Shown here: piece after piece, positions 2,444 to 62,830 of the stretch
How the letters are laid out: the number at the start of each line of letters is the position of its first letter
How positions within the stretch are numbered: the stretch's first letter is position 1
From: Halichondria panicea
Taxonomy: Eukaryota; Porifera; Demospongiae; Suberitida; Halichondriidae
Direction of reading: 5' to 3'
NCBI RefSeq assembly: GCF_963675165.1
Contig: NC_087386.1
Coordinates: 5,715,566 to 5,779,565, forward strand
Length of the DNA: 64,000 nt
Notes under the pieces: generated by a model
Databases searched by the model: none
Seen by the model: the letters and a program-made list of their open reading frames with translations, nothing else
Told to the model about the DNA's origin: nothing
Translations under genes and position numbers: made by a program

Positions 2444-5400
2444 ATGGCTACAAGAAGTGACCTTGATGCTCTGGTGGTCCAGGTGGAAGGATTGGGCTTA
2501 CAGGAGAACCAAGCTGGTCATGGGGCTTATGGCTGTGTCTTTAGAGTGACGGTGAATGGAAGAGACTGCATTGCTAAGAAGCTTCATCACATATTGCTCC
2601 AAGAGCAATCCCTTGGACAGAGGGAGAGGATTTTAACAAATTTCCGTCATGAGTGTCATATTCTGAGCGGTCTGGATCACCCCAACATTGTCGGTTTCGT
2701 TGGAGTCCATTACGGCCGTGATAAGAACGACATCAGTCTAATAATGGAGAGGCTTCATTCTGACTTGGCCAATTTCGTTGAAACCTATCGAGACACGAAT
2801 ATCGCCACTAGAATCCATATCCTGTATGATGTATCCAAGGGCCTTCACTATCTCCACTCTCTGACCCCTCCCCTCATCCATCGTGACCTCACTGCTCCCA
2901 ACATCCTGCTCACTGAGGATCTCACTGCCAAGATCGGAGACCTGGGTGTCTCCAGGTATGTGGACCTGGACAGATTGACTCATATACTGACAAGCGTCCC
3001 AGGAAATCCAAAATACATGCCTCCCGAGTGTCATGACGAACGACCCACCTACACTACCAAGCTGGACATCTTCTCATTCGGTCATCTCATCATTCACACT
3101 GTTATCGGTGATTTCCCTAAAGTCTCGTACTTAACTCACGATGCTATTAAGTACGTGGATGATGGAAAGGTGGAGCTCATGCGTCGAAGCACTGCTGTCC
3201 ATGGTGACAAAATGGGGGAGAAACACGCTCTTTATCCTCTTGTTGTTAGCTGCCTCCATGACCGACCTCAACAGAGACCATCAGTTGACGAACTGATTGT
3301 CTCACTCAGAAAGCTATGTCTACAGCACCCCAGGATGGTACGTGAGTGAGTGGGTGGAGGTATCAAATGTGCATTGTCAGCTTATATAGTGTTAGTGTCG
3401 ACTGTATGCTGGTACTTCTGTGTGGGTGGCTATAGAATCTTGAACAGTATATAACATGTACATACAATTTTTGTCATTCCATCTTTTGGGTGTGTTTACT
3501 GATAGTGTATTTTCTCCCAGGCATTTGTAGATGCTTGTGAGACGGGTGATGTGGGTGTGGTTCTGGAGCTACTGGAGTGTGGGGCTGATCCCAACCAGGC
3601 AGACAAGGTGAGGGGAATACTGTCTACAGTGCCAATATGTCCGTTGGTTGATGATGTTGTCTCTACAGTATGGTTGGACTGCTCTTTACTGGGCCAGTAG
3701 GAATGGACATGATGAGATAGTGAGGCTCCTCTTAGCAGCCAAGGCTACAGTCAACACTCAGATCAAGGTTTGTTTTGTTGTACAAATACATTTCCCACAA
3801 CATGCTGTTTACATTGTTTTCCTCCTATGTACAGGAGGGAGAGACTCCTCTTTGGACAGCCAGTTTCTATGGTCACCAGAAATGTATGGAACTCCTAATC
3901 AATGCTGGGGCCAATGTTGATGTACCCAAAGAGGTGAGTGTAAGTAGCTCTATACACATAGCCTCGATTCCAGGCCGATTAAAGTACGGCCTGGTACTTA
4001 TTGCATGGTGATAGTGAGCATGTGATAGTTTGTTCTCCAGAATCTGGGGAATCCCCTCTTTTCTTTCCATGTACATCAGCTTAGCTCTCTATTGTGTTGT
4101 TCCAGACGGCTTTCACACTAGTCTGAAGCCAAAAGAGGCTCTCATCCACTTCTATGACGGCTGTGTGGTCAGGATATCTTAGCTTGGATCTGTACAGGCT
4201 ATGGGAAGTGTATGGTGATTCTTGCATAGACAACCTGGCTATAGGACCATCGTAGACGTAGATGAGAGCCTCCAAACTAGTGTTCAAGCCTTCTAAGCAA
4301 TAGATACAGCTTCACGGAACTCAGTATGGAGATAAAATATTACGGAACATATTCTTAGGGACTAAATTACGGGTACTAAGGTTTTACGTTTGTAGTACGA
4401 TTACCCATATTCTGAAGGTACCAGGCAGTATTTTAATGCGGCCTGGAATCGAGGCTACTATACGCACATCTCAGAGGCCACTAGCCACAAAGCCTCCTCA
4501 TGTTCTGTTGACCTGGTCCATTAGACACCAGAGCTAGTCATGTTTGTGTAGAGAGCGCTGGTAGTTGGTACAACACGCATCTCGTGATCTATCCAATCTT
4601 TTTTACATTGGTTTTCAATGCAATGTGTTCCCTACAATAACTCTGTTATTTTGTGACTAAGGCTCAAGGGTAGTATAGTTTAGACCTAGATCTAACTGTT
4701 TCCGTTGCTGAACCCCAGTGAACCCTATTCAGTTAGGAGATATGCTTGCTACAAATGTTGAGAGCACTGCACCTTTCATATACATCTGGACGAGTTCTAA
4801 CCAGGACCTCAGCTGGAGAAACACTATAGCTAGCCATAGAGACCTTGAGCAATGTACAGAGCCAGCTAAATTGTCAGTTACAAGTGTTGTACAAGCCTAG
4901 AGTTTGTCGTAGCAAGGTCATGATATACTGCCAGCTAAGCAAACGTCATCAATTAAAAAAGTGTCCTCTGCCCCTGACATTAGTGTAGATAGTCATGTGA
5001 TATTGTATGAGTGATATTGTGTAATGAGTGGATCTGTACTATCTTGACTCTGTACAGGATGGGACCACAGCATTGTGGGTAGCTGCTCAGAATGGTCATG
5101 TGAGGGCAGTGGAATTGTTGATTGCTGCCAAAGCTAGAGTTGACATTCAAAATAAGGTGAGATTTACTAGAGTAGTGGATTGAGTAGTGGATTAGCTGGT
5201 CCAGTTGCGGGTTAGTGTAAAGCTGGAATCGGAATAGAACGAAAGATGGAATGACTAAAAAGAGAGCTGCTGATGGTGTTCTTAGTCTTAAATACTTGTG
5301 CTACAGAAGCCTTTTATAGACACAAAGCTACTATTATGTAAAAAAAATAGACTGAGTATAATTATAGTAGCAACATTGAACATTACAAATACACATAATT

Positions 5401-8400
5401 ATACGTGTCTATAGAATTAGCGAAGTAATTATGTTGTGCCCAAAATAAGGTGGAGTGTGAAGTCTATAGCTATACAGGACACTCCAAAGCTATACCTTTC
5501 TTCAATCTGCATGCCTGCAAAGTTTTGGCCCTTGGTGAAACTTTAAACAATTTGTGCGTGTTGAAGAGACACACTGACCAAGCCTTTTGCCATTGATTTC
5601 CACACACATTGGGTTGTGGAGTCAGCAAATTCCACATTTATACTCTCGTTATCTCAATATCTACCACTGTGCAACAGTGTGTGTAAGTTGTTGATCCTCT
5701 TTCCAATAACAGGTGTCATGTGATGATTACAGCCAGCTACATGTTCCGTTCCATATCTGCATTCCAGCTTATACACTAACCCTCCAGTTGCTGTTATACA
5801 TAATTATAATTATGATTTATGGTCTATATAACACAGGACAACCAGACAGCTCTGTATGCATGTAGCCAGTAACAACAGCATCGTGATCTCTCTTTTAATT
5901 GCATTCCAATCTTTTTTACATTGGTTTTCAATGTAGTGTGTTCCCTACAATAACTCTATTATTCTGTGACTAAGGCTCAAGGGTAGTATAGTTTAGACAT
6001 AGATCTAACTGTTTCCGTCGCTGAACCCCAGTGAGCCCTATTCAGTTAGGAGATATGCTTGCTACAAATGTTGAGAGCACTGCACCTTTCATATACATCT
6101 GGACGAGTTCTAAACAGGACCTCAGCTGGAGAAACACTATAGCTAGCCATAGAGACCTTGAGCAACGTACAGAGCTAGCTAAACAGCTAGTTACAAGCGT
6201 TCTACTGGTCTATAGAGTTTGTTGTGACAAGGTCGCGGTTAAGGTTACAGTATACTAATTGCTCATGAATGATTCATAAGATATTTATTTCTCATCACAA
6301 CGTTATTTTTGTAACTTGCAACGATTATCAATGGAAAGAGAACATGGAACAATGCTAGCTACAATAATAACTCAGAGTTTATATGTCTTGTAATCCAATG
6401 AAGTGGTCTGAGGTCAGCTGGAAAAACTGAGTATTTTGTCGTCAAATTTTGTTGACTGCATAGCTTCTAGGTTGTCTTTCTGACCAGTATTCGATGCCTG
6501 AAGACTTACTGGAGGGCGACTCGAAGAGATCTTGTTCATAGAGACCTTACAGCAAAAAATATATCCTTGTTACTACTCTACAGTCGCCATATTAGCCTAC
6601 AAAAACAGCTAGAAAAATGGCCGTAACTTTGTTGTAACTTACTCTCTTGGGAAAAACTCTTTGAGTCACCTGCCCCTTTATTCGTATAATAAGAAACAGC
6701 AGAGTATACGGTAAGGAGGGGTTTCCTGGTGCCTGGAATTAACGCAGAGTAACCATTGCCAGATGAGAGCCATTTTACTAGCTGAACTACATTGAACACC
6801 CACGCAGATTTGAGTGTGGGTGGAACAGTATACCGTAACCTTAACTACCAGCTAAACAAACGTCATCACAAATGAAGATTCAATTAAATAAGTGTCGTAC
6901 CTCCTCTGCCCTGACATTAGTGCAGATAGTCATGTGATATTTTGTGAGTGATAGTGTGTAATGAGTGGATCTGTACTATCTTGACTCTGTGCAGGATGGA
7001 ACCACAGCATTGTACATGGCCTGTACGAATGGTCACTGTGGAGTTGTTCGAATGTTGTTGGAGGCCAAGGCTGACGTTCACAACAAGAATAATGTGAGTC
7101 ACGCTGCATGGTGGTGTTTGTGTACTCTGCTGATTCCATGGTTGAGTGTGTGTACTGTCACCTCTGTGTTAGTCTCGTTCCTAGGCCGCTTTTTTCGAAG
7201 GGGGAAAAGGCCTGGTGTCCATTGCTTGGGTGTTAGTGCGCATGGTAATCGTGCACTAATGTAAAACTTTTGCAAACTAGTCCGTTTACTAGGAATATGT
7301 TCCGTAATACGTACTTCCATACTGAAGCTATGGCTTATGCCCTCTATTGCGTTGGCCAAGAATGCTGGTACACTTAGTCTGAGGCCAGTAGTCTCTAGTT
7401 CTACGATGGTTGTATAGTTGTCTTCTCAAACAGCAGTTAGAAGTACCATAGGAAGCATGCACAAAGACTTGCTATAGCCAGTCCTTCCAAGCTCAGACAT
7501 TCCGACCATACGACTGTCGTGAAGTAGACGAGATGCTCTTCTGGCTTCAGGCTAGTGTGCAAGCCTTCTTGATCAACACAATAGAAGCACAGCATGGTAG
7601 ATAGGGGGAAAAGAAGGGATTCCCCATATTTTACAGCAAAACTAAGTGCATGCGTACTATCAGTAGACACCAGGCCGCATTTTCCTCCCTTCCATTCCAT
7701 ACAAAAAAATTGGCCTGGGAACGAGGCTACCTCTGTGTATGAGTGGACTGAGTAGTGGAGAGTGTACAATTAGCTGGTCCAGTTGCTGTGATATATAATT
7801 ATATGGTTTATGGTCTATAACAGAACAACCAGACAGCTCTGTTTGTAGCCTGTCACCAGGGACATGATGAGATAGTGAGGGTCCTCTTAGCAGCCAAGGC
7901 TACAGTCAACACTCAGAATACGGTTGGTTTTGTTGTACAAAACTATTTCCCACAACATGCTGTTCACGTTGTTTTCCTCCTATGTACAGTCGGGAGAGAC
8001 CCCTCTTTACGCAGCCAGTTTCAATGGTCACCAGAAATGTATGGAGCTCCTAATCGATGCTGGGGCCAATGTTGATTTACCCAAAGAGGTGAGTGTACAT
8101 GTAAGTAGCTGTACACACATCTCAGAGGCCACTAGCCACAGAGCCTCCCCATGTTCTTTTGACCTGGTCCATTAGACACCAGAGCTAGTCATGTTTATGT
8201 AGATAGCACTGGTAGTTGGTGTACCGAGGTACGACACGCATCTCGTGATCTCTCTTTTAATTGCATTCCAATGTAATGCACAATAACTTTGACTAAGGCT
8301 CAAGGGTAGTATAGTTTAGACCTAGAGGTAACTGTTTCCGTCACTGAACCTCAGCCATTAAATTAAAGATAAGGCCTGCTACTGACTGCTTTCGGTGGTT

Positions 8401-10117
8401 AGCGATCCGACACGAAAATTAAGTCCTTGAAAATTGTTCTTTAATTACTATAACGTGCAAAGATTAAAAGACGTGTCTTCCTGTAAGCAGTCATTCCATG
8501 AACATTGTGCAACGAAATGGTTTTGAGGCCATTCCAAGAAATATAAGTGCCTCGAAAATTTCGCGCTATACGGTATGTGACATCATTACTGAGCATGCAC
8601 GTTGTTATCCTGTGTTAGCCGATATCTGGCTCTCAGAGGAAGTGCGGCCTGGGATCGAGGCTAGTGTATCCCCTGACATTAGTGTAGATAGTCATGTGAT
8701 ATTGTATAATGAGTGGGTCTGTGATAAGTGATGGTTCACCTGCTCACACTATCTTGACTCCGTACAGACTGGAGCCACTGCGTTGTATGCAGCTGCTCAG
8801 AATGGTCATGTGAGGGCAGTGGAATTGTTGATTGCTGCGAATGCTCAAGTTGAAATTCAAGAGAAGGTGAGATTTACTGCTTATAATTATCTGTATTAAT
8901 AATTATTTGGTCTTGTTGAGAAGGGGGGACAGCATTGCACATTGCCAGCTATTATTACTGGCTGTTTGTTTGTTTAAAATTTTTTGGATGTTTACAGGAT
9001 GGTTGGACGGCATTGCACATGGCCAGTCACCAGGGTCACTGTGGAGTTGTTAGAATGTTGTTGGAGGCCAAGGCTGACGTCCATATCAAGTCTAATGTGA
9101 GTCACGCTGCATGATTGTAATCACTATACGTATTACTAGAATATTTTGCGGATGAAAAACCTTTGCGAATTAACCAAGTCAGCAGAAAAATTGACCCTTT
9201 GCGATCACTATTGCGTTCTGGTGAGGATCGTGTGTATTTACTTAGGTTTTGCGATTTTATTGTTGCGAATTGATCAACTCTCGCAAAGTTGGCGTATGTT
9301 TGATGCATTCTAGTATATAGTACAGTAGTTAGGTATACCTTAATGTTACTACCGTATAGCCGGTAATTTTCGTGGGGCAAAAAATTCGTTATTTTCGAGG
9401 GCAAGCTAGCTGACCTCCACGAAATTTTAACGTATGTGCGTGGCTTACCGGAACGTATGAATGCAGTGCAGGCAATGAGACTAAACAAATTATTTACCCC
9501 ACAAAAATTACCCGCTATATGGTACATGTATGTATTATAAACGAGTACTAATTAAATTTTTAGCAAATTTGTTATTAACGCTAAATTAAGACCTCGCTAA
9601 TAATTATTATTATAACGCATTATGAATTTCAAAAAAGTTCTCTTGAGAGTAAGCTATAGCAAGCTAGCCCCTGTATCTGACTCAAAACTTTCCTTTCAAG
9701 CTTAAAACTGGTTGTCCTTAATCAGTGGACTGGCTGACTGGACTGGACTGGACTTTGACCTGACTGTTGCAACACCAATTACATTCCTTTTCTCCAAGAC
9801 CACAATGACAAATGATCTGACCATTTTGACAAATAATTAATGTGCTAATGAATTTTCTGCCAAAATTAGTACTCTAAAAAATCTGATACGCTAAAATTAC
9901 TACTGTCTATTTATTAGTAACCTTAATTAAGGTAACAATTATTCATCACCATGGCAACAGTGTTCTCCTGGTTATGTATATATTGCTGTCCACTGTTAAA
10001 ATTCCTTATTTCCCTTCATCACTAACTGCTCACATACCCACTATACAGGACGGACATACTGCCTATGATATGGCTAGTAGGAAGGGACACACTCAAGTGT
10101 GTGAACTACTACACTGA
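2444..10117 (+). CDS. KA1: protein kinase with eight C-terminal ankyrin repeats
   Basis: Predicted 613 residues from 11 exons: 2444-3337, 3521-3607, 3669-3767, 3835-3933, 5058-5156, 6995-7093, 7824-7922, 7990-8088, 8768-8866, 8998-9096, 10049-10117. All introns are phase 0. The kinase domain fills exon 1: glycine loop GHGAYGCV at residues 25-32, ATP lysine K45, helix-C E70, HRDLTAPN at 146-153 with D148 and N153, DLG (not DFG) at 166-168, and PPE at 193-195. The Ser/Thr-kinase lysine two after the catalytic Asp is Thr, so substrate class is unclear. Exon 2 is a 29-residue linker with a partial ankyrin motif. Exons 3-10 are one 33-residue ankyrin repeat each, in the order ABCDABCD; exon 11 ends in CELLH. 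No signal peptide or membrane segment is seen, so it is probably cytosolic. The order resembles RIPK4/ANKK1. I chose ATG 2444 because [17 protein letters not shown] is conserved in all copies, although the frame is open to 2390. Confidence 0.88.
3959..4457. mobile_element. MITE, TAGCCTCG family, 499 bp with 9-bp target duplication
   Basis: Ends TAGCCTCGATTCCAGGCCG and its inverse. Flanks are CTATACACA at 3950-3958 and CTATACGCA at 4458-4466; the equivalent KA5 copy has a perfect 9-bp duplication. It lies in the intron between exons 4 and 5. A 9-bp duplication suggests a Mutator-like origin. Confidence 0.8.
4718..4900 (+). other. Conserved intronic ORF (MNPIQLGDM), 60 codons
   Basis: One of six copies of the same unrecognised ORF in KA introns; the others start near 6031, 38714, 47471, 62393 and 63736. 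This copy ends early, after SVVQA, compared with the 75-codon versions. A CCCAG acceptor-like trimer precedes it, but no donor in a fitting position was found. It is probably part of an inserted repeat rather than an exon. Confidence 0.3.
5209..5782. mobile_element. MITE, GGGTTAGTG family, 574 bp with 9-bp target duplication
   Basis: Ends GGGTTAGTGTAAAGCTGGAA and an inverted near-copy (…CCAGCTTATACACTAACCC). Perfect 9-bp duplication TCCAGTTGC at 5200-5208 and 5783-5791. The related intron at about 7771-7800 in the same gene retains the unfilled site (GGTCCAGTTGCTGTG). Confidence 0.85.
5837..5872 (+). pseudogene. Relic 5' part of an A-type ankyrin exon
   Basis: After an acceptor (AACACAG) the sequence encodes [11 protein letters not shown] and then TAA. 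It runs directly into intron sequence normally found after a B-type exon (CGTGATCTCTC). The last two-thirds of the exon and its donor are gone, so it should be skipped. The same relic is in KA3, KA4 and KA5, so the deletion predates their duplication. Confidence 0.7.
6031..6258 (+). other. Conserved intronic ORF (MSPIQLGDM), 75 codons
   Basis: Longer version of the ORF at 4718, ending DKVAVKVTVY. Its last codons run into the left end of the 6238-6845 inverted-repeat element, so the C-terminus is element-derived. No known domain recognised. Confidence 0.3.
6238..6845. mobile_element. Inverted-repeat element, GTTAAGGTTAC family, ~608 bp
   Basis: Left end GTTAAGGTTACAGTATACT and right end its inverse with one mismatch. 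Near the right end is a short hairpin around CACCCACGC/GTGTGGGTG. Copies lie at the same place in KA3, KA4 and KA5. The target duplication is not resolved. Confidence 0.65.
7170..7729. mobile_element. MITE, TAGCCTCG family, 560 bp with perfect 9-bp target duplication
   Basis: Begins TAGTCTCGTTCCTAGGCC and ends GGCCTGGGAACGAGGCTA. The flanks CCTCTGTGT at 7161-7169 and 7730-7738 are identical. It lies in the intron after exon 6 (D-type). Reading frames inside it are not genes. Confidence 0.85.
8391..8575. mobile_element. Truncated MITE, TACCGTATAGC family
   Basis: Matches the right 185 bp of the complete 213-bp element at 50075-50287 in KA4, ending TTTCGCGCTATACGGTA. The left inverted end is missing. 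It lies in the intron before exon 9. Confidence 0.7.
9134..9315. mobile_element. Short MITE with TACTAGAAT ends, 182 bp
   Basis: Begins TACTAGAATATTTTGCG and ends GCATTCTAGTA, inverted copies over the outer bases. It is AT-rich with TTGCGAATT motifs. Related copies lie at 50848-50994 and, partial, at 19232. Confidence 0.65.
9350..9524. mobile_element. MITE, TACCGTATAGC family, 175 bp
   Basis: About 27-bp imperfect inverted ends starting TACCGTATAGCCGGTAATTT on the left and, inverted, TACCATATAGCGGGTAATTT on the right. The same insertion is at 51029-51201 in KA4. Confidence 0.75.
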
Positions 10118-10746: not shown

Positions 10747-10866
10747 CATAATGAAGAGGTGTCTGATTGTCTGTGTCCTCAATATTAACATCTGCTCCCC
10801 TCTTCACAAGTAGTTTCACCATGTTCAGGTTGCCACGGTCACAGGCCCAGTGAAGAAGACCATCCC
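10747..10866 (-). pseudogene. ACBD6-like ankyrin exon, copy 1
   Basis: One exon with acceptor ATACAG and donor GTGAGA. It encodes LLHWACDRGNLNMVKLLVKR and then GADVNIEDTDNQTPLHY, an ankyrin repeat resembling the C-terminal repeats of acyl-CoA-binding protein ACBD6. One base is missing in the GGGATGGGT start compared with the copies at 24740 and 42261, which shifts the frame. Upstream on its strand lies COLGALT exon 9 instead of its own earlier exon. It is a stranded, broken exon. Confidence 0.6.
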
Positions 10867-11928
10867 CTGTATCATGAAATGCATCTCTATATACAACAAT
10901 CTAGCGTTAATTTGTTGTAAGTTCGGACAATCCAAACTTGCATGGTTATGGTTCAAGGAAATTAGACAGCAATTTTCTTACTTCTAGACTACTGTCAGCT
11001 GATTATAAGGTGTGCCTTATTTATGGTGTTGCACTGAACTACTTGTAAGCAAAGATTGGAATATTGTCTAACGAGATACGGACATTGCATATAATAATAG
11101 ACTTTATATCTCCAGAGCTCTCACATGAGGTCCCAGTTTGGTGTGATCCGATTGGCCTCTTCCAGCACTCTAGTGAGGTCATGTCGGAAGTAGGGCTCAA
11201 ACACGACATCATCCTCCAGAATCAGGATTTGATCCAGACCCTCCGTCATCATCTGGGGGGTAAGAGAGGTACAGTAAGACTTGTCTATACTGGTCACCCT
11301 TGGACAGACCAACAGTGGCTATTATAACAAGATGCTCAGTAGAGCATTCATCCGTGCGTTGACATAACGGACACGCAATCAACTTTTTATTGTAATGACT
11401 TTAACATTATGGGGATTCTACAAAGCAACGATTGGATCGATTAGAAAACAGTGTTTTTTGTCGCCTTTGAAGACAAGTAGTTTATTATTTTTCAACCACC
11501 GCCTCATTATCAGTTAAAGCAGTTCATGAAAGTGTCTAGTTTGCTCAAACAGCTAATGTTTGTGTCCGCACACAGGAGACTTAGGAGCACATTAACCTGG
11601 CTGTAATATTATAGAGGGTGACCACATTAGACAGGTTTCACACAGTTACAAGTGCCCACAATGCAACAGGTAGCAATACTTTCTGTACACATCAACAAGT
11701 GTTCACTAACGCCCACTCACCTGCTGCCATATCGTGTGGTGACTAAGGAAACAGCCAAACTCTCCAAAGGTCATAGGTCGTTCTCCCCAAGGGTCCTTCC
11801 AGCCGGGTAGGTACTTGATGCCCAGACTGTCCAGGTAGCTCTGATTCAACTGTCTGTAGTGGCCAGGGATAAAATAAACAAAAGAGGTTCTTTTAAATAT
11901 GAGTTCCCCACCACATCCTTGTGTATCA

Positions 11929-12070
11929 ATTAGTGTGTATTGTCTTCTCCCCCATCCCTCTGTATTGTACAGCCAGTTATGTCTCCCCTCACACACAGTG
12001 AACCTATACTCTACACCATGCAGTACATCTCAAGACTACCCTCTCTCAATGACAATTTGGGGTTGGACGT
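11929..12070 (+). repeat. Inverted, unamplified copy of COLGALT exon 6b and its acceptor
   Basis: On the plus strand, opposite to the gene, a TGTCTCCCCTCACACACAG acceptor is followed by TG, then CCTATACTCT, and then 12022-12070, which encodes QYISRLPSLNDNLGLDV. This parallels QYISRPPPVKDNLGLDA of exon 6b. It lies in the E7-E8 intron. It differs by a 4-nt deletion from the real exon and ends GTGATAAG rather than a good donor. Upstream, 11929-11956 looks like one degenerate minisatellite unit. Confidence 0.65.
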
Positions 12071-19226: not shown

Positions 19227-19231
19227 CCTAT

Positions 19232-21736: not shown

Positions 21737-24070
<2,334 letters not shown>

Positions 24071-26819: not shown

Positions 26820-26961
26820 AATTAGTGTGTATTGTCTCCTCCCCCATCCCTCTGTATTGTACAGCCAGTTATGTCTCCCCTCACACACAGTGAACCTATA
26901 CTCTACACCATGCAGTACATCTCAAGACTACCCTCTCTCAATGGCAATTTGGGGTTGGACG
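26820..26961 (+). repeat. Inverted, unamplified copy of exon 6b in COLGALT copy 2
   Basis: Equivalent of 11929-12070: acceptor-like CACACACAG, then the QYISRLPSLNGNLGLDV segment on the plus strand. Its presence in both copies shows that the inversion predates the duplication. Confidence 0.65.
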
Positions 26962-42260: not shown

Positions 42261-42775
42261 CATAATGAAGAGGGTGTCTGATTGTCTGTGTCCTCAATAT
42301 TAACATCTGCTCCCCTCTTCACAAGTAGTTTCACCGTGTTCAGGTTGCCACGGTCACAGGCCCAGTGAAGAAGACCCATCCCCTGTATCATGAAATGCAT
42401 CTCTATAATTATACATGTGCAAGTATGTGTACAGCATTCTACAATCAGCATTAGTTTCAAACATTAAACAGGCTCAGTTAGTTCAAATTATACAGCAATT
42501 TTCTTATAATTGGAGAGTCTTTTCAGAATGTGTATATCAACTATATAACTATTTTGGCACATAATTACAGGAATGAACTATATTATAACATTATTAACCT
42601 GTCTACTCACCTCTTGGTCAGTTTGATTGACATTGGTGTCAGAGAGTAGAGATCGTAATTTCTTTTCATTCCCTCCTTACACCAGTCGAACATTGTCGTC
42701 TTGTCGTCAGTTAGTGCCCTCCTCTGTGTCTCATCCAGCCAGAGTGCTCCCCTGCATGACCAGAGTCCCCACAAT
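42261..42775 (-). pseudogene. ACBD6-like gene fragment, two exons, frameshifted
   Basis: Upstream exon (about 42611 to 42770, donor GTGAGT) encodes [20 protein letters not shown] and then, one frame over, NEKKLRSLLSDTNVNQTDQE. One G appears to be missing in the GAGGGAATG stretch. The next exon, 42261-42382, encodes GMGLLHWACDRGNLNTVKLL in phase 0 with it, and has one extra base in the AAGAGGGTG stretch that scrambles the end. The order (acidic linker, then LLHWACDRG ankyrin) matches the C-terminal half of ACBD6-type acyl-CoA-binding proteins, from memory of that family. It is fused on its 5' side to FATP sequence. Confidence 0.6.
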
Positions 42776-43790
42776 GGCAGCCATTCCAGCACGCCCCTCG
42801 TTACCAGGCACCTCAACACCATACACCACCACATCCGTCAACTTTAACACAGTAGCAATACGAGTCTCAACCTCTGCCGTGGATACGTTCTCCCCCTTCC
42901 AACGAAACGTGTCCCCAGATCGATCACACAAATACACCCAACCTTCCTCGTCAATGCGCATTATGTCTCCAGTTCTGAAAAAAGCATCTCCTGCTTTGAA
43001 ACAATTCCTAAGAAATTTTTTGCTGAGTTCTCTTTGTTTCGATATCCGTAGAAGGGAGAGACTGTAGTAGGTTCGCTCACACCACACTCGACACAGAAAC
43101 CATTCTCATCTCTTAGGTAATCGCCAGTCTCCGGATGAAGCTTCAGGATAGTGACGTTTTGAAGGGATGGTACAAACAGTGGGAGAGCTCCAACAGATCC
43201 TGGCTTATTGTCAATGTTGATGATACCAAAGTTACCCTCAGCAGAGCCATAAAACTCGATAATGTGATCAAATCGTTTCTGGAACTCCAGCCACAGCTCT
43301 TTTCTGAGTCCTGCAGTGATGATTAGACGTACTTTGTGATGTGTGTTAGTGGGTTGAGGGGGTTGGGCCAACACGTAGCGATTCAACTCCCCAATCGTGC
43401 ACACCATCTGCACAGTGGGGGAGTAAGTGGATATAAATGAAGTGATGTCACCAGTACACAGTGATACATAGCTCAAGTTGTGTAGTGAAAGCAAAGGCAA
43501 GAATAGCTGAAAGCATAACAATACGTACTGTCTATCTAAGACATTAATGTAAGTGGGTCAGCTAGCCCCAGCCAATTAGCCAACTCACAGTGCAGTTGTA
43601 CTTTGCACTATCAGTCCAACAGTGTTTGGCAGAGAACTTTTTCCTAATGGCGAGAGTGGCTCCTGTGTAGATCATAGGCCCTCCACCGTGTGCGAGGCCG
43701 TGGGAATGGTAGAGGGGCAGGACAGAGTACACACAGTCACTGTCAGTCACTCCTCCGGCAATCACAAAGAAAGTAGGAGAACGAAACAAT
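42770..43790 (-). pseudogene. FATP/SLC27A fragment, copy 4
   Basis: Exon 43589-43790 encodes the AMP-binding region (LPLYHSHG, IRKKFSAKHCWTDSAKYNCT). After a phase-0 intron, a long exon from 43407 encodes MVCTIGELNRYV, FYGSAEGN (the FATP form of the adenylate-forming motif), and then [19 protein letters not shown] and [17 protein letters not shown], hallmarks of FATPs that couple fatty-acid uptake to CoA activation. Between the two halves one A is missing in an A run (43016-43021 on the plus strand), which shifts the frame. All 5' exons and the last ~90 residues of the family are absent; the 3' end is replaced by ACBD6-like sequence. Homopolymer errors in assembly could mimic the frameshift. 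Confidence 0.75.
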
Positions 43791-47300: not shown

Positions 47301-50300
47301 TGTAGCCAGTAACAACAGCATCGTGATCTCTCTTTTAATTGCATACCAATCTTTTTTACATTGGTTTTCAATGTAGTGTGTTCCCTACAATAACTCTATT
47401 ATTCTGTGACTAAGGCTCAAGGGTAGTATAGTTTAGACATAGATCTAACTGTTTCCGTCGCTGAACCCCGGTGAACCCTATTCAGTTAGGTGATATGCTT
47501 GCTACAAATGTTGAGAGCACTGCACCTTTCATATACATCTGGACGAGTTCTAACCAGGACCTCAGCTGGAGAAACACTATAGCTAGCCATAGAGACCTTG
47601 AGCAACGTACAGAGCTAGCTAAACAGCTAGTTACAAGCGTTCTACAGGCCTATAGAGTTTGTCGTGACAAGATCGCGGTTAAGGTTACAGTATACTAATT
47701 GCTCATGAATGATTCATAAGATATTTATTTCTCATCACAATTATTTCTCATCACAACGTTATTTTTGTAACTTGCAACGATTATCAATGGAAAGAGAACA
47801 TGGAACAATGCTAGCTACAATAATAACTCAGAGTTTATATGTCGTGTAATCCAATGAAGTGGTCTGAGGTCAGCTGGAAAAACTGAGTATTTTGTCGTCA
47901 AATTTTGTTGACTGCATAGCTTCTAGGTTGTCTTTCTGACCAGTATTCGATGCCTGAAGACTTACTGGAGGGCGACTCGAAGAGATCTTGTTCATAGAGA
48001 CCTTACAGCAAAAAATATATCCTTGTTACTACTCTACAGTCGCTATATTAGCCTACAAAAACAGCTAGAAAAATAGCCGTAACTTTGTTGTAACTTACTC
48101 TCTTGGGAAAAACTCTTTGAGTCACCTGCCCCTTTATTCGTATAATAAGAAACAGCAGAGTATACGGTAAGGAGGGGTTTCCTGGTGTCTGGAATTAGCG
48201 CAGAGTAACCATTGCCAGATGAGAGCCATTTTACTAGCTGAACTACATTGAACACCCACGCAGATTTGAGCGTGGGTGGAACAGTATACCGTAACCTTAA
48301 CTACCAGCTAAACAAACGTCATCACAAATGAAAATTCAATTAAATAAATGTCGTACCTCCTCTGCCCTGACATTATTGTAGATAGTCATGTGATATTGTA
48401 TGAGTGATAATAATTATTATTGTGTAATGAGTGGATCTGTACTATCTTGACTCTGTACAGAATGGAGATGGAACCACAGCATTGTACATGGCCAGTCAGG
48501 AGGGTCACTGTGGAGTTGTTAGAATGTTGTTGGAGGCCAAGGCTGACGTTCACAACAAGACTAATGTGAGTCACGCTGCATGGTGGTCTTTGTGTACTCT
48601 GCTGATTCCATGGTTGAGTGTGTGTACTGTCACCTCTGTGTTAGTCTCGTTCCTAGGCCGCTTTTTTCGAAGTGGGAAAAGGCGTGGTGTCCATTGCTTG
48701 GGTGTTAGTGCGCATGGTAATCGTGCACTAATGTAAAACTTTTGCAAACTAGTCCGTTTACTAGGAATATGTTCCGTAATACGTACTTCCATACTGAAGC
48801 TATGGCTTATGCCCTCTATTACGTTGGCCAAGAAAGCTGGTACACTTAGTCTGAAGTCTGAGGCCAGTAGTCTCTAGTTCTACGATGGTCGTATAGTTGT
48901 CTTCTCAAGCAGCAGTTAGAAGTACCATAGGAAGCATGCACAAAGACTTGCTATAGCCAGTCCTTCCAAGCTCAGACATTCCGACCATACGACTGTCGTG
49001 AAGTAGACGAGAGGCTCTTCTGGCTTCAGACTAGTGTGCAAGCCTTCTTGATCAACACAATAGAAGCACAGCACGGTAGATAGGGGGAAAAGAAGGGGAT
49101 TCCCCATATTCTACAGCAAAACTAAGTGCATGCGCACTCTCAGTAGACACCAGGCCGCATTTTCCTCCCTTCCATTCGATACCAAAGAATCGGCCTGGGA
49201 ACGAGGCTACCTCTGTGTATGAGTGGACTGAGTAGTGGAGAGTGTACAATTAGCTTGTCCAGTTGCTGTGATATATAATTATATGGTTTATGGTCTATAA
49301 CAGAACAACCAGACAGCTCTGCATATAGCCAGTAGGAATGGACATGATGAGATAGTGAGGGTCCTTTTAGCAGCCAAGGCTACAGTCAACACTCAGACCA
49401 AGGTTGGTTTTGTTGTACAAACACATTTCCCACAACATGCTGTTTACATTGTTTTCCTCTTATGTACAGGAGGGAGAGACTCCTCTTTGGACAGCCAGTT
49501 TCCATGGTCACCAGAAATGTATGGAGCTTCTAATCGATGCTGGGGCCAATGTTGATGTACCCAAAGAGGTGAGTGTAAGTAGCTGTACACACATCTCAGA
49601 GGCCACTAGCCACAGAGCCTCCCCATGTTCTGTTGACCTGGTCCATTAGACACCAGAGCTAGTCATGTTTGTGTAGAGAGCACTGGTAGTTGGTGTACTG
49701 AGGTACGACACGCATCTCGTGATCTCTCTTTTAATTGCATTCCAATGTAATGCACAAAAACTTTGACTAAGGCTCAAGGGTAGTATAGTTTAGACCTAGA
49801 TCTAACTGTTTCCGTCACTGAACCTCAGCTAGCTAGAGACAGAGCTATAGGCTTGTTGTACAGCTATTTTCTTTCAGTAGCAGTAGTATAGTAGACTTTC
49901 ATCGAAGTTAGTATTAGATGGGCGTGGCCTGTCCATATAGGCTATTGTCAGCCTTCACTCCTTTCAGACGATTGTCATCCACACTGTTGCTGGTTATGAG
50001 TATTTTGTTAACATAGCAGGCTAGGGGTAGCTATCAGAATGCTATCAGATGGCAACCTTCCATCTAACTTTCTATACCGTATAGCACGAAATTTTCGCGA
50101 ATTTCGGTGGTTAGCGATCCGACACGAAAATTAAGTCCACGAAAATTGTTCTTTAATTACTATAACGTGCAAAGATTAAAAGACGTGTCTTCCTGTAAGC
50201 AGTTATTCCACGAACATTGTGCAACGAAATGGTTTTGAGGCCATTCCAAGAAATATAAGTGCCTCGAAAATTTCGCGCTATACGGTATGTGACATCATTA

Positions 50301-51770
50301 CTGAGCATACACGTTGTTATCCTGTGTTAGCCGGTATCTGGCTCTCAGAGGAAGTGCGGCCTGGGATCGAGGCTAGTGTATCCCCTGACATTAGTGTAGA
50401 TAGTCTTGTGATATTGTATAATGAGTGGGTCTGTGATAAGTGATGGTTCACCTGCTCACACTATCTTGACTCCGTACAGACAACTGGAACCACAGCGTTG
50501 TGGATAGCTGCTCAGAATGGTCATGTGAGGGCAGTGGAATTGTTGATTGCTGCGAATGCTCAAGTTGAAATTCAAGAGAAGGTGAGATTTACTGCTTATA
50601 AAATTATCTGTATTAATAATTATTTGGTCTTGTTGAGAAGGGACAGCATTGCACATTGCCAGCTATTATTACTAGCTGTTTGTTTGTTTAAAAATATTTG
50701 GATGTTTACAGGATGGTTGGACGGCATTGCACATAGCCAGTCAGAATGGTCACTGTGGAGTTGTTAGAATGTTGTTGGAGGCCAAAGCTGACGTCCACAT
50801 CAAGACTAATGTGAGTCACGCTGCATGATTGTAATCACTATACGTATTACTAGAATATTTTGCGAATTAACCAAGTCAGCGGAAAAATTGACCCTTTGCG
50901 ATCACTATTGCGTTCTGGCGAGGATCGTCTGTATTTTATTGTTGCGAATTGATCAACCCTCGCAAAGTTGGCGTATGTTTGATGCATTCTAGTATATAGT
51001 ACAGTAGTTAGGTATACCTTAATGTTACTACCGTATAGCCGGTAATTTTCGTGGGGCAAAAAATTCGTTATTTTCGAGGGCAAGCTAGCTGACCTCCACG
51101 AAATTTTAACGTAGGCGTGGCTTACCGGAATGTATGAATGCAGTGCAGGCAATGAGACTAAACAAATTATTTACCCCACAAAAATTACCCGCTATATGGT
51201 ACATGTATGTATTATAAACGAGTACTAATTTTAGCGAATTTGTAATTAACGCTAAATTAAGACCTCGCTAATAATTATTATTATAACGCATTATGAATTT
51301 CAAAAAAGTTCTCTTGAGAGTAAGCTATAGCAAGCTAGCCCCTGTATCTGACTCAAAACTTTCCTTTCGAGCTTAAAACTGGCTGTCCTTAATCAGTGGA
51401 CTGGCCGACTGGACTGGACTGGACTTTGACCTGACTGTTGCAACACCAATTACATTCCTTTTCTCCAAGACCACATTGACAAATGATCTGACCATTTTGA
51501 CAAATAATTATTGTGCTAATGAATTTTCTGCCAAAATTAGTACTCTAAAAAATCTGATACGCTAAAATTACTACTGTCTATTTATTAGTAACCTTAATTA
51601 AGGTAACAATTATTCATCACCATGTTCTACTGGTTATGTGTAATTGTGTTAAAATTCCTTATTTCCCTTCATCACTAACTGCTCACATACCCACTATACA
51701 GGACGGACATACTGCCTATGATGTGGCTAGTAGGAAGGGCCACACTCAAGTGTGTGAACTACTACACTGA
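44325..51770 (+). CDS. KA4: protein kinase with eight ankyrin repeats and an extra intron
   Basis: Predicted 614 residues. Exons: 44325-44836, 44953-45334, 45501-45587, 45649-45741, 45809-45907, 46450-46548, 48461-48565, 49304-49402, 49470-49568, 50480-50581, 50712-50810, 51702-51770. The kinase has the same phase-2 intron as KA3 and intact [11 protein letters not shown] and PPE motifs. Repeat order is ABCDABCD. Three repeats change length in frame, all at the beta-turn: exon 4 lacks WT (93 nt, DGALYWAS), exon 7 has two extra residues ([12 protein letters not shown], 105 nt), exon 10 has one extra ([11 protein letters not shown], 102 nt). The 5' flank and last exons match KA1, while the kinase intron matches KA3. 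All splice sites are GT-AG. Product likely cytosolic. Confidence 0.87.
44837..44952 (+). other. Kinase intron shared with KA3 (116 bp)
   Basis: Same position and phase as 35513-35625. The donor side reads CAGGTATGTTTG and the acceptor side CAGGTATGTTGATC, again a direct repeat. Confidence 0.85.
45931..46246. mobile_element. Truncated MITE, TAGCCTCG family, in KA4
   Basis: Left part of the element seen at 3959, cut at about 46246 where fold-back arm sequence begins. The right end is gone. Confidence 0.65.
46247..46343. mobile_element. Fold-back arm sequence, two direct copies
   Basis: The right arm of the 37481-37593 element (GGTATTGCAGAGGCAATTAG and onward) occurs twice in the same orientation. 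The inverted arm is missing, so this is a rearranged remnant. Confidence 0.6.
46601..47222. mobile_element. MITE, GGGTTAGTG family, in KA4
   Basis: Orthologous to 5209-5782, with TCCAGTTGC on both sides. About 622 bp, with small internal insertions. Confidence 0.8.
47277..47312 (+). pseudogene. Relic A-type ankyrin exon in KA4
   Basis: [11 protein letters not shown] then TAA after an intact acceptor, as at 5837. Confidence 0.65.
47471..47698 (+). other. Conserved intronic ORF (MNPIQLGDM) in KA4
   Basis: 75 codons, ending [10 protein letters not shown] inside the adjacent inverted-repeat element. See 4718. Confidence 0.3.
47678..48301. mobile_element. Inverted-repeat element, GTTAAGGTTAC family, in KA4
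   Basis: Orthologous to 6238-6845, with a small internal duplication (TTATTTCTCATCACAA). Confidence 0.6.
48642..49209. mobile_element. MITE, TAGCCTCG family, ~568 bp, in KA4
   Basis: Orthologous to 7170-7729, with CCTCTGTGT on both sides. Confidence 0.8.
50075..50287. mobile_element. Complete MITE, TACCGTATAGC family, 213 bp
   Basis: Ends TACCGTATAGCACGAAATTT and, inverted, TACCGTATAGCGCGAAATTT. It lies in the intron before exon 10 of KA4. KA1 has only the right part at 8391. Confidence 0.8.
50848..50994. mobile_element. MITE with TACTAGAAT ends, in KA4
   Basis: Orthologous to 9134-9315 with internal deletions. Confidence 0.6.
51029..51201. mobile_element. MITE, TACCGTATAGC family, in KA4
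   Basis: Orthologous to 9350-9524. Confidence 0.7.
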
Positions 51771-52392: not shown

Positions 52393-52500
52393 CATAATGA
52401 AGAGGTGTCTGATTGTCTGTGTCCTCAATATTAACATCTGCTCCCCTCTTCACAAGTAGTTTCACCATGTTCAGGTTGCCACGGTCACAGGCCCAGTGAA
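52393..52500 (-). pseudogene. ACBD6-like ankyrin exon, copy 4, truncated by array 3
   Basis: Encodes WACDRGNLNMVKLLVKRGAD and onward with an intact donor. The start of the exon (GMGLLH and the acceptor) is replaced at 52500/52501 by minisatellite sequence. COLGALT exons E6b-E9, present at this place in the other two loci, are missing. Confidence 0.7.
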
Positions 52501-55500
52501 GGGAGACAACACGCACACTAGTGCAGTATAGGGGGGGTGGTCCACTGTGTGGGCCGGGAGACAACACGCACACTAGTGCAGTATAGGGGGGTGGTCCACT
52601 GTGTGGGGGGAGACAACACGCACACTAGTGCAGTACAGGGGGGTGGTCCACTGTGTGGGGGGAGACAACACGCACACTAGGTCCACTGTGTGGGGGGAGA
52701 CAACACGCACACTAGTGCAGTATAGGGGGGTGGTCCACTGTGTGGGGGGAGACAAAACGCACACTAGTGCAGTATAGGGGGGTGGTCCACTGTGTGGGGG
52801 GAGACAACACGCACACTAGTGCAGTATAGGGGGGGTGGTCCACTGTGTGAGGGAGACAACACGCACACTAGTGCAGTATAGGGGGGTGGTCCACTGTGTG
52901 GGGGGAGACAACACGCACACTAGTGCAGTATAGGGGGGTGGTCCACTGTGTGGGGGGAGACAAAACGCACACTAGTGCAGTATAGGGGGGTGGTCCACTG
53001 TGTGGGGGGAGACAACACGCACACTAGTGCAGTATAGGGGGGGTGGTCCACTGTGTGGGGGAGACAACACGCACACTAGTGCAGTATAGGGGGGTGGTCC
53101 ACTGTGTGGGGGGAGACAACACGCACACTAGTGCAGTATAGGGGGGGTGGTCCACTGTGTGGGGGGAGACAACACGCACACTAGTGCAGTATAGGGGGGT
53201 GGTCCACTGTGTGGGGGGAGACAACACGCACACTAGTGCAGTATAGGGGGGGTGGTCCACTGTGTGGGGGAGACAACACGCACACTAGTGCAGTATAGGG
53301 GGGTGGTCCACTGTGTGGGGGGAGACAACACGCACACTAGTGCAGTATAGGGGGGGTGGTCCACTGTGTGGGGGAGACAACACGCACACTAGTGCAGTAT
53401 AGGGGGGTGGTCCACTGTGTGGGGGGAGACAACACGCACACTAGTGCAGTATAGGGGGGGTGGTCCACTGTGTGGGGGGAGACAACACGCACACTAGTGC
53501 AGTATAGGGGGGTGGTCCACTGTGTGGGGGGAGACAACACGCACACTAGTGCAGTATAGGGGGGGTGGTCCACTGTGTGGGGGGAGACAACACGCACACT
53601 AGTGCAGTATAGGGGGGTGGTCCACTGTGTGGGGGGAGACAACACGCAAACTAGTGCAGTATAGGGGGGTGGTCCACTGTGTGGGGGGAGACAACACGCA
53701 AACTAGTGCAGTATAGGGGGGTGGTCCACTGTGTGGGGGGAGACAACACGCACACTAGTGCAGTATAGGGGGGTGGTCCACTGTGTGGGGGGAGACAACA
53801 CGCACACTAGTGCAGTATAGGGGGGGTGGTCCACTGTGTGGGGGAGACAACACGCACACTAGTGCTGTATAGGGGGGTGGTCCACTGTGTGGGGGGAGAC
53901 AACACGCACACTAGTGCAGTATAGGGGGGTGGTCCACTGTGTGGGGGGAGACAACACGCACACTAGTGCAGTATAGGGGGGGGGTGGTCCACTGTGTGGG
54001 GGGAGACAACACGCACACTAGTGCAGTATAGGGGGGTGGTCCACTGTGTGGGGGGAGACAACATGCACACTAGTGCTGTATAGGGGGGTGGTCCACTGTG
54101 TGGGGGAGACAACATGCACACTAGTGCTGTATAGGGGGGTGGTCCACTGTGTGGGGGGAGACAACACGCACACTAGTGCAGTATAGGGGGGTGGTCCACT
54201 GTGTGGGGGGAGACAACACGCACACTAGTGCAGTATAGGGGGGTGGTCCACTGTGTGGGGGGAGACAACACGCACACTAGTGCAGTATAGGGGGGTGGTC
54301 CACTGTGTGGGGGGAGACAAAACGAACACTAGTGCAGTATAGGGGGGTGGTCCACTGTGTGGGGGAGACAACATGCACACTAGTGCTGTATAGGGGGGTG
54401 GTCCACTGTGTGGGGGGAGACAACACGCACACTAGTGCAGTATAGGGGGGGGGTGGTCCACTGTGTGGGGGGAGACAACACGCACACTAGTGCAGTATAG
54501 GGGGGTGGTCCACTGTGTGGGGGGAGACAACACGCACACTAGTGCAGTATAGGGGGGTGGTCCACTGTGTGGGGGGAGACAAAACGCACACTAGTGCAGT
54601 ATAGGGGGGTGGTCCACTGTGTGGGGGAGACAACATGCACACTAGTGCTGTATAGGGGGGTGGTCCACTGTGTGGGGGGAGACAACACGCACACTAGTGC
54701 AGTATAGGGGGGTGGTCCACTGTGTGGGGGGAGACAACACGCACACTACAGTAGGTCCACTGTGTGGGGGGAGACAACACGCACACTAGTGCAGTATAGG
54801 GGGGGTGGTCCACTGTGTGGGGGGAGACAACACGCACACTAGTGCAGTATAGGGGGGTGGTCCACTGTGTGGGGGGAGACAACCCGCACACTAGGTCCAC
54901 TGTGTGGGGGGAGACAACACGCACACTAGTGCAGTATAGGGGGGGGTGGTCCACTGTGTGGGGGGAGACAACACGCACACTAGTGCAGTATAGGGGGGTG
55001 GTCCAGTGTGTGGGGGGAGACAACACGCACACTAGTGCAGTATAGGGGGGTGGTCCAGTGTGTGGGGGGAGACAACACGCACACTAGTGCAGTATAGGGG
55101 GGTGGTCCACTGTGTGGGGGGAAACAACACGCACACTAAGTCCACTGTGTGGGGGGAGACAACACGCACACTAGTGCAGTATAGGGGGGTGGTCCACTGT
55201 GTGGGGGGAGACAACACGCACACTAGTGCAGTATAGGGGGGTGGTCCACTGTGTGGGGGGAGACAATACGCACACTAATGCAGTATAGGGGGGTGGTCCA
55301 CTGTGTGGGGGGAGACAACACGCACACTAGTGCAGTATAGGGGGGGTGGTCCACTGTGTGGGGGGAGACAATACGCACACTAATGCAGTATAGGGGGGTG
55401 GTCCACTGTGTGGGGGGAGACAACACGCACACTAGTGCAGTATAGGGGGGTGGTCCACTGTGTGGGGGGAGACAACACGCACACTAGTGCAGTATAGGGG

Positions 55501-59817: not shown

Positions 59818-59870
59818 AGGAGAGCTATGCACACAGCAAGTGCAATCAAGTGTATCGAGAGACTATTCAT

Positions 59871-60109
59871 AGATGATCTGTGGAGCTGGGAATTTTAATT
59901 TGATAGAGTTTATCTGGTATTTCTGAACATCTGACTGGTGATTATTTCACTGCTTCTCGAGCCTTACTCTATGTGACAGCCTCGCTTTTTGATCTTTGAT
60001 GGAGAACTGTGCTTCTTTATCTTGACAAGAAGAGGATGTCCCTATTGTTATTGCTTTAACTGAGCATGCGCAGTACGAACGTGCCCTGCCCTTTATGTAA
60101 ACTGTGCAA
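59871..60109. promoter_or_regulatory. Divergent promoter region, COLGALT copy 3 / KA5
   Basis: Only 239 bp separate the two start codons. GCATGCGCAG lies at 60064-60073, 37 bp before the KA5 ATG. Confidence 0.5.
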
Positions 60110-62830
60110 ATGGCTACAAGAAGTGACCTTGATGCTCTGGTGGTCCAGGTGGAAGGATTGAATCTAGAGGAGAACAAAGCTGGCTCAGGGGCTTATGGCT
60201 GTGTCTTTAGAGTGACGGTGAATGGAAGACACTGCATTGCTAAGAAGCTTCACTCCATATTGCTCCAAGAGCGATCCCTTGGACAGAGGGAGAGCATTGT
60301 GACAAAGTTCAGAAATGAATGTCAAATTCTGAGTGTTTTACATCACCCCAACATAGTTGTTTTCGTTGGAGTCCATTACGGCCGCGATAAGAACGACATC
60401 AGTCTAATAATGGAGAGGCTTCATTCCGACTTGGCTGATTTCGTTGAAACCCATCGAGACACGAATATCGCCACTAGAATCCATATCCTGTATGATGTAT
60501 CCAAGGGACTTCACTATCTCCACTCTTTGACCCCTCCCCTCATCCATCGTGACCTCACTGCTCCCAACATCCTGCTCACTGACGACCTCACTGCCAAAAT
60601 CGGAGACCTGGGCGTCTCCAGATACGTTGATCTGGAGAGATTGACTCATGTTCTGACAAAAATTCCTGGAAATCCAACCTACATGCCTCCCGAGTGTCAT
60701 GAAAAACGGCCCACCTACACTACCAAGCTGGACATCTTCTCATTCGGTCATCTCATCATTCACACTGTTATCGGTGATTTCCCTGAAGTCTCGTACTTTA
60801 CTCCTGAGGTTATCAAGCACGTGGATGATGGGAAAATGGAGCTCATGCGTCGAAGCACTGCTGTCCATGGTGACAAAATGGGGGAGAAACACGCTCTTTA
60901 TCCTCTTGTTGTTAGCTGCCTCCATGACCGACCTCAACAGAGACCATCAGTTGACGAAGTGATTGTCTCACTCAGAAAGCTGTGTCTACAGCACCCCAGA
61001 ATGGTACGTGAGTGAGTGGGTGGAGGTATCAAATGTGCATTGTCAGCTTATATAGTGTTAGTGTCGACTGTATGCTGGTACTTCTGTGTGGGTGGCTATA
61101 GAATCTTGAACAGTATATAACATGTACATACAATTTTGTCATTCTATCTTTTAGATGTGTTTACAGATAATGTATTTTCTCCCAGGCATTTTTGGATGCT
61201 TATAAGACGGGTGATGTGGGTGTGGTTCTGGAGCTACTGGAGTGTGGGGCTGATCCCAACCAGGCAGACAAGGTGAGGGGAATACTGTCTACAGTGCCAA
61301 TATGTCCGTTGGTTGATGATGTTGTCTCTACAGGATGGTTGGACTGCTCTTTACTGGGCCAGTAGGAATGGACATGATGAGATAGTGAGGGTCCTCTTAG
61401 CAGCCAAGGCTACAGTCAACACTCAGATCAAGGTTTGTTTTGTTGTACAAATACATTTCCCACAACATGCTGTTTACATTGTTTCCCTCCTATGTACAGT
61501 CGGGAGAGACCCCTCTTTGGGTAGCCAGTTTCAATGGTCATCAGAAATGTATGGAGCTCCTAATCGATGCTGGGGCCAATGTTGATGTACCCAATGAGGT
61601 GAGTGTAAGTAGCTCTATACACATAGCCTCGATTCCAGGCCGATTAAAGTACGGCCTGGTACTTATTGCATGGTGATAGTGAGCATGTGATAGTTTGTTC
61701 TCCAGAATCTGGGGAATCCCCTCTTTTCTTTCCATGTACATTAGCTTAGCTCTCTATTGTGTTGTTCCAGAAGGCTTTCACACTAGTCTGAAGCCAAAAG
61801 AGGCTCTCATCCACTTCTATGACAGCTGTGTGGTCAGGATATCTTAGCTTGGATCTGTACAGGCTATGGGAAGTGTATGGTGATTCTTGCATAGACAACC
61901 TGGCTATAGGACCATCGTAGACGTAGATGAGAGCCTCCAAACTAGTGTTCAAGCCTTCTAAGCAATAGATACAGCTTCACGGAACTCAGTATGGAGATAA
62001 AATATTACGAAACATATTCTTAGGGACTAAATTACGGGTACTAAGGTTTTACGTTTGTAGTACGATTACCCATATTCTGAAGGTACCAGGCAGTATTTTA
62101 ATGCGGCCTGGAATCGAGGCTACTATACACACATCTCAGAGGCCACTAGCCACAAAGCCTCCTCATGTTCTGTTGACCTGGTCCATTAGACACCAGAGCT
62201 AGTCATGTTTGTGTAGAGAGCGCTGGTAGTTGGTGTACCGAGGTACAACGCGCATCTCGTGATCTATCCAATCTTTTTTACATTGGTTTTCAATGCAATG
62301 TGTTCCCCACAATAACTCTGTTATTTTGTGACTAAGGCTCTAGGGTAGTATAGTTTAGACCTAGATCTAACTGTTTCCGTTGCTGAACCCCAGTGAACCC
62401 TATTCAGTTAGGAGATATGCTTGCTACAAATGTTGAGAGCACTGCACCTTTCATATACATCTGGACGAGTTCTAACCAGGACCTCAGCTGGAGAAACACT
62501 ATAGCTAGCCATAGAGACCTTGAGCAATGTACAGAGCCAGCTAAATTGTCAGTTACAAGTGTTGTACAAGCCTAGAGTTTGTCGTAGCAAGGTCACGATA
62601 AACTGCCAGCTAAGCAAACGTCATCAATTAAAAAAGTGTCCTCTGCCCTGACATTAGTGTAGATAGTCATGTGATATTGTATGAGTGATATTGTGTAATG
62701 AGTGGATCTGTACTATCTTGACTCTGTACAGACTGGAGCCACTGCATTGTGGGTAGCTGCTCAGAATGGTCATGTGAGGGCAGTGGAATTGTTGATTGCT
62801 GCCAAAGCTAGAGTTGACATTCAAAATAAG
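60110..62830 (+). CDS. KA5: kinase-ankyrin gene, 5' part, continues past the window
   Basis: Visible exons: kinase 60110-61003, linker 61186-61272, A 61334-61432, B 61500-61598, C 62732-62830. The next D-type exon would lie beyond 64000. The kinase is a single 298-codon exon without the KA3/KA4 intron. Its motifs are intact; the conserved VGFVGV is VVFVGV here, and the activation segment reads [14 protein letters not shown]. Repeats: [42 protein letters not shown]. Introns are almost identical to KA1 up to the right edge. In-frame GTG-CAA precedes the ATG, but ATG is conserved as the start. Confidence 0.87.
61624..62122. mobile_element. MITE, TAGCCTCG family, 499 bp, perfect duplication, in KA5
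   Basis: Same insertion as 3959-4457, with CTATACACA identical on both sides. This clean copy establishes the 9-bp target duplication. Confidence 0.85.
62393..62575 (+). other. Conserved intronic ORF (MNPIQLGDM), short form, in KA5
   Basis: 60 codons, the same early end (SVVQA) as 4718. Confidence 0.3.

Follow-up and report, generated by a model that had tools for sequence, protein, structure and literature searches.

The window analysed here is a stretch of 64,000 nucleotides from the sponge Halichondria panicea (C10:5715566-5779565), within a genome of 131 Mb in 39 contigs. Its plus strand carries five tandem units, W1 to W5, in which a kinase is joined to a series of ankyrin repeats. Wnt has 10 exon matches in this genome, as suits an animal; innexin has two weak matches of about 27 bits, whereas PMC10280926 describes sponges as lacking innexin-related genes. 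The five units are part of a much larger family, whose repeats are nearly uniform except at seven positions. The pattern of change at these positions points to diversifying selection on a binding face, and the genes are mosaics of one another.

Kinase-ankyrin genes of the window and their family

Each unit is built as a kinase, a cap exon, the ankyrin exons A, B, C and D, a second cap and a stop. Every repeat exon encodes one ankyrin repeat, most of them are 99 bases long, and the A-D series is doubled in W1, W3 and W4. A scan with a hidden Markov model (HMM) revealed 31 full repeat exons across the window. W1 consists of a kinase exon at 2444-3337 (residues 1-298; Pfam PF07714, 1.4e-36), an N-terminal ankyrin cap exon at 3521-3607, which was assigned by its splice sites and frame, its HMM match being weak, and the repeat exons A (3669-3767), B (3835-3933), C (5058-5156) and D (6995-7093). 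These are followed by A' (7824-7922), B' (7990-8088), C' (8768-8866) and D' (8998-9096) and by the C-terminal cap with the stop (10049-10117), which is based on the HMM and the spliced model. The kinases of W3 and W4 are each encoded by two exons. In W3 the kinase (35001-36013; exons 35001-35512 and 35626-36013) precedes an ankyrin region at 36197-41603, with the cap starting at 36197, A at 36344, B at 36510, C at 37700 and D at 39650, and the second series with A' at 40489, B' at 40655, C' at 41160, D' at 41307 and the closing cap at 41535. In W4 the kinase (44325-45334; exons 44325-44836 and 44953-45334) precedes an ankyrin region at 45501-51770, with the cap at 45501, A at 45649, B at 45809, C at 46450 and D at 48461, and the second series with A' at 49304, B' at 49470, C' at 50480, D' at 50712 and the cap at 51702. 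W1, W3 and W4 give intact spliced models of 613, 615 and 614 residues, respectively, without stops and with consistent GT/AG borders. Three repeats of W4 have in-frame indels at the tip of the beta-turn: A at 45649 is two codons shorter, D at 48461 two codons longer and C' at 50480 one codon longer.

The remaining two units are a disabled copy and an incomplete one. The W2 kinase (21743-22651) contains in-frame stops; its ankyrin region (22974-24070) comprises A (22974-23072), B (23139-23237), C (23627-23725), D (23774-23872) and a cap from 24002. W5 has an open kinase frame at 60101-61015 (PF07714, 6e-37) and ankyrin exons at 61334-62830 (A at 61334, B at 61500, C at 62732), and the gene runs past the end of the window.

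At least 136 matches to the kinase were found in the genome (E up to 1e-20). About 35 kinase N-terminal matches, a hand count that includes partial and stop-bearing copies, lie within some 1.4 Mb of C10 (5.05-6.42 Mb). A second array on C17 comprises 10 kinase copies, which are 69-71% identical to the kinases of the window, and B-like exons are additionally present on C8, C13 and C22. The HMM found no full ankyrin exon in the kinase arrays of C3, C1 and C12, of each of which one region was scanned, and these arrays were excluded from the analysis. In the genes whose end was seen the number of repeats ranges from 4 to 11, and both their order and their number differ between genes.

The results below are based on 25 of the 35 C10 genes, the five of the window and 20 more, and on their 173 one-repeat exons (A 40, B 57, C 41, D 35). 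Out of 201 HMM rows 28 were dropped, 25 as caps or partial exons and three due to a frameshift, a stop or a score below 40. The HMM was trained on 30 exons of the window, and strongly diverged exons could therefore be missed. Kinase statistics refer to 24 copies (276 pairs), omitting the disabled kinase of W2.

Variable positions of the repeats and tests for selection

A preliminary description of this DNA, made from the letters alone, had listed the variable codons of the B and D exons in the window. The codon preceding the GHQ motif in the eight B exons is indeed TAT, AAT, TAT, TAT, AGT, GAT, CAT and AAT, in the order of the exons; their first codon encodes E, S or L, the third E, Q, A or V and the eighth T, A or V, and the variable residues of the D-type exons were likewise found as listed. 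The flanking introns of the B exons had been called almost unchanged. For the 57 B exons of the 25 genes that is true upstream (mean nucleotide diversity 0.066, 54 columns) but not downstream (0.22 and 0.32).

In ankyrin numbering the variable positions of the 173 exons are 1, 3, 5, 9, 10, 13 and 14. Their mean entropy is 1.61 bits, compared to 0.24 bits elsewhere. Positions 1, 3 and 5 belong to the beta-turn. The spacing of 9, 10, 13 and 14 puts them on a single side of the first helix; 8, 11 and 15 are nearly invariant. Placement of the positions relied on numbering, on alignment to PDB ankyrins and on PMC10484509 and PMC4986451. According to PMC10484509, the varied residues of designed ankyrin repeat proteins (DARPins) are 45, 46, 48, 56 and 57, repeating every 33 residues. 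We renumbered these as 2, 3, 5, 13 and 14. Position 33 is presumably a further member of that set. The DARPin set, which is independent of our data, also separates variable from conserved sites (entropy 1.20 versus 0.38, permutation p 0.004). Both kinds of repeats combine a constant framework with varied residues in the beta-turn and the first helix. The equation of the variable sites with those randomised in designed ankyrins nevertheless holds only in part: 3, 5, 13 and 14 are common to both, whereas position 2, varied in DARPins, and position 33 are nearly constant in the sponge repeats, which do vary at 1, 9 and 10.

For the C17 array the site set was fixed beforehand from C10. The amino-acid differences at the seven positions, referred to here as contact positions, amount to 0.435 in the C17 A exons (n=7) and to 0.543 in the B exons (n=6), as against 0.022 and 0.038 elsewhere. 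The A exons of this array vary at 1, 5, 9 and 13; 3, 10 and 14 are constant. As the introns of C17 are more diverged (0.07-0.28), this array supports the positions but not the tempo of change. All 10 kinase copies were sampled; B exons were omitted if they contained a stop (L022 at 5102, L032, L035) or lacked GHQKC (L033), and L036 gave no match.

Codon models in which the seven-position set and the remaining codons have rates of their own were fitted on trees from exons plus introns and on trees from introns only. On the former the ratio of non-synonymous to synonymous rates (omega) inside and outside the set is 7.9 and 0.53 for A, 5.7 and 0.39 for B, 2.6 and 0.29 for C, and 4.1 and 0.31 for D, and the likelihood-ratio test (LRT) against omega inside of 1 gives 87, 100, 28 and 44, respectively. 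Intron-only trees yield still higher values inside the set (A 18.2, B 9.6, C 4.0, D 19.9). If the DARPin set is used instead, the inside values on the exon-plus-intron trees are 5.3 for A, 3.0 for B, 1.4 for C and 3.6 for D. Non-synonymous change is thus concentrated rather than spread evenly along the exons, and this applies to all four types.

A tree-free test used 732 exon pairs, which were picked by separate flanking DNA (for A exons the flank includes the cap exon). The proportion of non-synonymous differences (pN) is 0.299 in the contact codons and 0.025 in the framework, the proportion of synonymous differences (pS) in the framework is 0.067, and the near introns diverge by 0.049. Contact pN is therefore about six times the near-intron divergence (A 7.2, B 8.2, C 4.6, D 3.9), in agreement with the expectation of the preliminary description that the introns are less diverged than the variable codons. 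These numbers bear on the simplest alternative, namely that the variable positions are free sites of the ankyrin surface which drift neutrally after duplication. The positions concerned are generally tolerant in ankyrin repeats; however, neutral drift should not exceed the divergence of the introns, and an omega above 1 with LRT values of 28-100 is not expected of it either. We consider such a relaxation of constraint very improbable indeed.

The attached kinase follows a different pattern. Its pN/pS is 0.45 and most of it is conserved, except for residues 228-243, where pN/pS reaches 0.91 and variation occurs in blocks, with an entropy of up to 2.0 bits. This segment is a possible partner or substrate site.

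Mosaic genes, putative mutators and neighbouring sequences

Among the 57 B exons, 18 are identical in all 78 framework bases (26 codons) and yet bear 18 different seven-residue signatures; in this subset, which was chosen for its identical framework, the flanking introns differ by a median of 16%. Other sets with identical framework comprise nine A exons with eight signatures, seven A exons with six, four C exons with four and six D exons with six. Distinct signatures, some of them partial, were found in all 25 genes. Pairs of contact codons frequently occur in all four combinations of their states (A 2 of 10 pairs, A' 11 of 15, B 19 of 21, C 14 of 21, D 17 of 21), and the normalised mutual information exceeds that of shuffled data by little (observed and shuffled: A 0.33 and 0.32, A' 0.31 and 0.24, B 0.26 and 0.20, C 0.33 and 0.26, D 0.35 and 0.27). 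The contact codons thus come close to linkage equilibrium. At position 9 the states TGG and TAC, which are two bases apart, each occur beside many neighbour states, which suggests that short conversion tracts, and not recurrent double mutations, have spread them.

Whole genes are mosaics as well. Over 900 coding bases the kinase of W3 is the same as that of another copy, L008, but exon B of the two differs at nine bases, of which six fall in contact codons. With the copy L014, W3 has its cap, A and B exons in common without any difference, but the two kinases differ in 83 columns.

Our best explanation is a large tandem family of kinases, in which an N-terminal TKL/TK-like (tyrosine-kinase-like or tyrosine-kinase) domain is followed by a stack of ankyrin repeats at the C-terminus. 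The framework of the repeats would be held near uniform by purifying selection and probably by gene conversion, while seven positions per repeat would be under diversifying selection. Gain and loss of exons together with short conversion tracts would then reshuffle the contact codons and give each gene examined a surface of its own. That surface may bind variable ligands, probably non-self or self-marker molecules, and the binding may be signalled through the kinase. The reading as a whole, diversifying selection on a binding face plus gene conversion resulting in a germline recognition repertoire, receives a probability of about 0.6.

Several observations weigh against it. The seven positions were chosen post hoc, with the C17 array and the DARPin set as outside tests, and for C the DARPin set falls short of significance, with an LRT of 2.7 (6.9 when the intron-only tree is used). 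Outside that set, omega on the exon-plus-intron trees is about 1 for both A (0.94) and B (1.02), as some variable sites do not belong to it. Position 13 of B (at the amino-acid level) and positions 10, 13 and 14 of C vary little, and position 29 of C and positions 31-32 of D are variable although they do not belong to the seven. Recombination violates the single-tree assumption of the codon models. Four exon pairs, two of A and two of B, share both framework and signature, and in the comparison of W3 with L008 only one of the five differing bases of exon A lies in a contact codon. Finally, contact pS in the 732 pairs is 0.145, about twice the framework pS, and in A and B the codon models give a higher synonymous rate inside the set than outside it (LRT 7.5 and 6.2).

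The last two findings would suit a targeted mutator, either deamination of the AID type or a diversifier of the retroelement type, that alters the contact codons with little selection, and the genome contains 16 matches to APOBEC_N, 15 of which cluster on C15. However, the synonymous rate is not raised in the other two types, being lowered in C (LRT 9.3) and equal in D. Codon 12 of the B exons ends in T in 55 of 57 cases and in the synonymous C in none, although variation is seen at its first two bases. AID would be expected to act at WRC/GYW hotspots, but the contact codons of A to D did not show change centred on them; such sites are in fact rarer there than elsewhere in all four exon types (0.037-0.101 versus 0.124-0.175 per base). 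Nor did the contact bases exhibit the adenine-specific variation of a diversity-generating retroelement, their mean nucleotide diversity by majority base being 0.32 for A, 0.39 for C, 0.37 for G and 0.28 for T. A mutator with little selection is quite improbable, and selection explains the data more simply; mutation may have contributed to the change in the contact codons of A and B, since the synonymous rate is raised there.

The APOBEC_N matches themselves are located at C15:4737732-4861818 (15 matches) and C13:3449920-3450207, with 26-42 bits at a cut-off of 25, and two have internal stops. Two of the frames were read (L037, L039) and contain the motif HAE...PCxxC, which suggests an array of AID/APOBEC-like deaminases.

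Between the units of the window other sequences are found. A 52-base minisatellite, with 279 copies of its 300-base reference in register, occupies about 12.3-19.4k, 27.2-31.9k and 52.3-56.7k; it is present in several duplicated units and yields long spurious frames on the minus strand. Gene fragments include a glycosyltransferase 25 at 11706-12029 (Pfam match) with a similar stretch at 26598-26921, and further ones lie at 42961-43557, 10751-10855, 42293-42370 and 52397-52501 (minus strand). They comprise a weak match to AMP-binding enzymes below the cut-off and an ankyrin pair, which we take to resemble ACBD6. A relic exon with an A'-like acceptor occurs at 5837, 38494, 47277 and 63542, with the variant reading DNQTTLYACSQ; at 5837 a stop follows. 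It is probably a truncated A' exon.

The kinase, comparable systems and the case for recognition

The model of W1 consists of the kinase (residues 1-298) and an ankyrin part (299-613), which matches PDB ankyrins over almost its whole length. Pfam assigns the kinases of W1 and W5 to PK_Tyr_Ser-Thr. W1, W3 and W4 contain GAYGCVF at residue 27, CIAKKL at 42, HRDLTAPNI at 146, GDLG at 165, with DLG instead of DFG, and PPEC at 193, which we read as the glycine loop, the catalytic lysine, the HRD, the DxG and the PE motif. The kinase keeps the motifs of active kinases and may be active. Pfam gave only kinase-type families and no NACHT or NB-ARC in the three kinase frames scanned. The proteins are probably cytosolic, as by eye the models hold only kinase and ankyrin repeats.

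Best among the PDB matches listed for the kinase are TNNI3K (7.6e-24), CTR1, WNK1, Roco4 and MET; no RIPK is among the best 60 of 941 matches. TNNI3K has ankyrin repeats as well, but N-terminal to its kinase, and it does not to our knowledge form a multigene repertoire. RIPK4 and ANKK1 have an N-terminal kinase followed by C-terminal ankyrin repeats, the same order as in the models of W1, W3 and W4. As far as we know they are present in few copies and are not hypervariable.

The nearest precedent is the ankyrin repeats of fungal NOD-like receptors (NLRs). PMC4986451 describes conserved ankyrin repeats in Podospora NLRs, polymorphism in repeat number, positively selected sites in the inner helix and the beta-hairpin, and inferred recombination between repeats. 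Conserved repeats, selected sites on the binding face and variable repeat number, here between paralogues, are found in the sponge too. In contrast to these NLRs, the sponge genes combine the repeats with a kinase instead of NACHT or NB-ARC, belong to an animal, encode one repeat per exon and number tens per contig. The titles and abstract openings listed in the literature searches revealed no description of a hypervariable kinase-ankyrin family in an animal. In H. panicea, according to PMC8242945, ankyrin-repeat genes and genes for kinase activity shift their expression upon lipopolysaccharide, which is a hint only, as those genes need not belong to the present family.

The preliminary description had suggested a locus diversified for recognition, perhaps immune, with a kinase as output. 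Of this, a diversified repertoire with its change concentrated at the binding face and a conserved kinase attached is supported, and C17 varies at several of the same positions; the supposed identity with the DARPin set does not stand. At the level of evolution a diversified recognition locus is well supported by the comparison of the sequences. An immune receptor with a kinase output is a plausible reading of the predicted architecture, about as probable as its negation. The same diversified face could also be driven by allorecognition or gamete recognition, by the management of symbionts or by the pairing of the kinase with substrates or adaptors. The evidence for selection and for mosaic genes is equal for all these drivers, and the variable kinase segment would fit co-varying partners. 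We regard a non-immune driver as possible but rather doubtful.

Beyond this one may think of an antibody-like inherited library, in which tens of kinases on one scaffold would constitute an undescribed kind of animal recognition system, with gene conversion on the scale of codons reassorting a limited choice of residues at the seven positions and AID/APOBEC-like deaminases possibly helping. That is speculative and, at present, unlikely.

If confirmed by expression and population data, the diversified kinase-ankyrin family would give animal immunity or allorecognition a further repertoire for recognition, one encoded in the germline. It would also provide a library of naturally occurring ankyrin binders, perhaps with a kinase as readout, and its variable set (1, 3, 5, 9, 10, 13 and 14) differs from that chosen by engineers. 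A solution known from fungal NLRs (PMC4986451) would here be coupled to a kinase, in an animal, on a large scale and with the recombination still readable.

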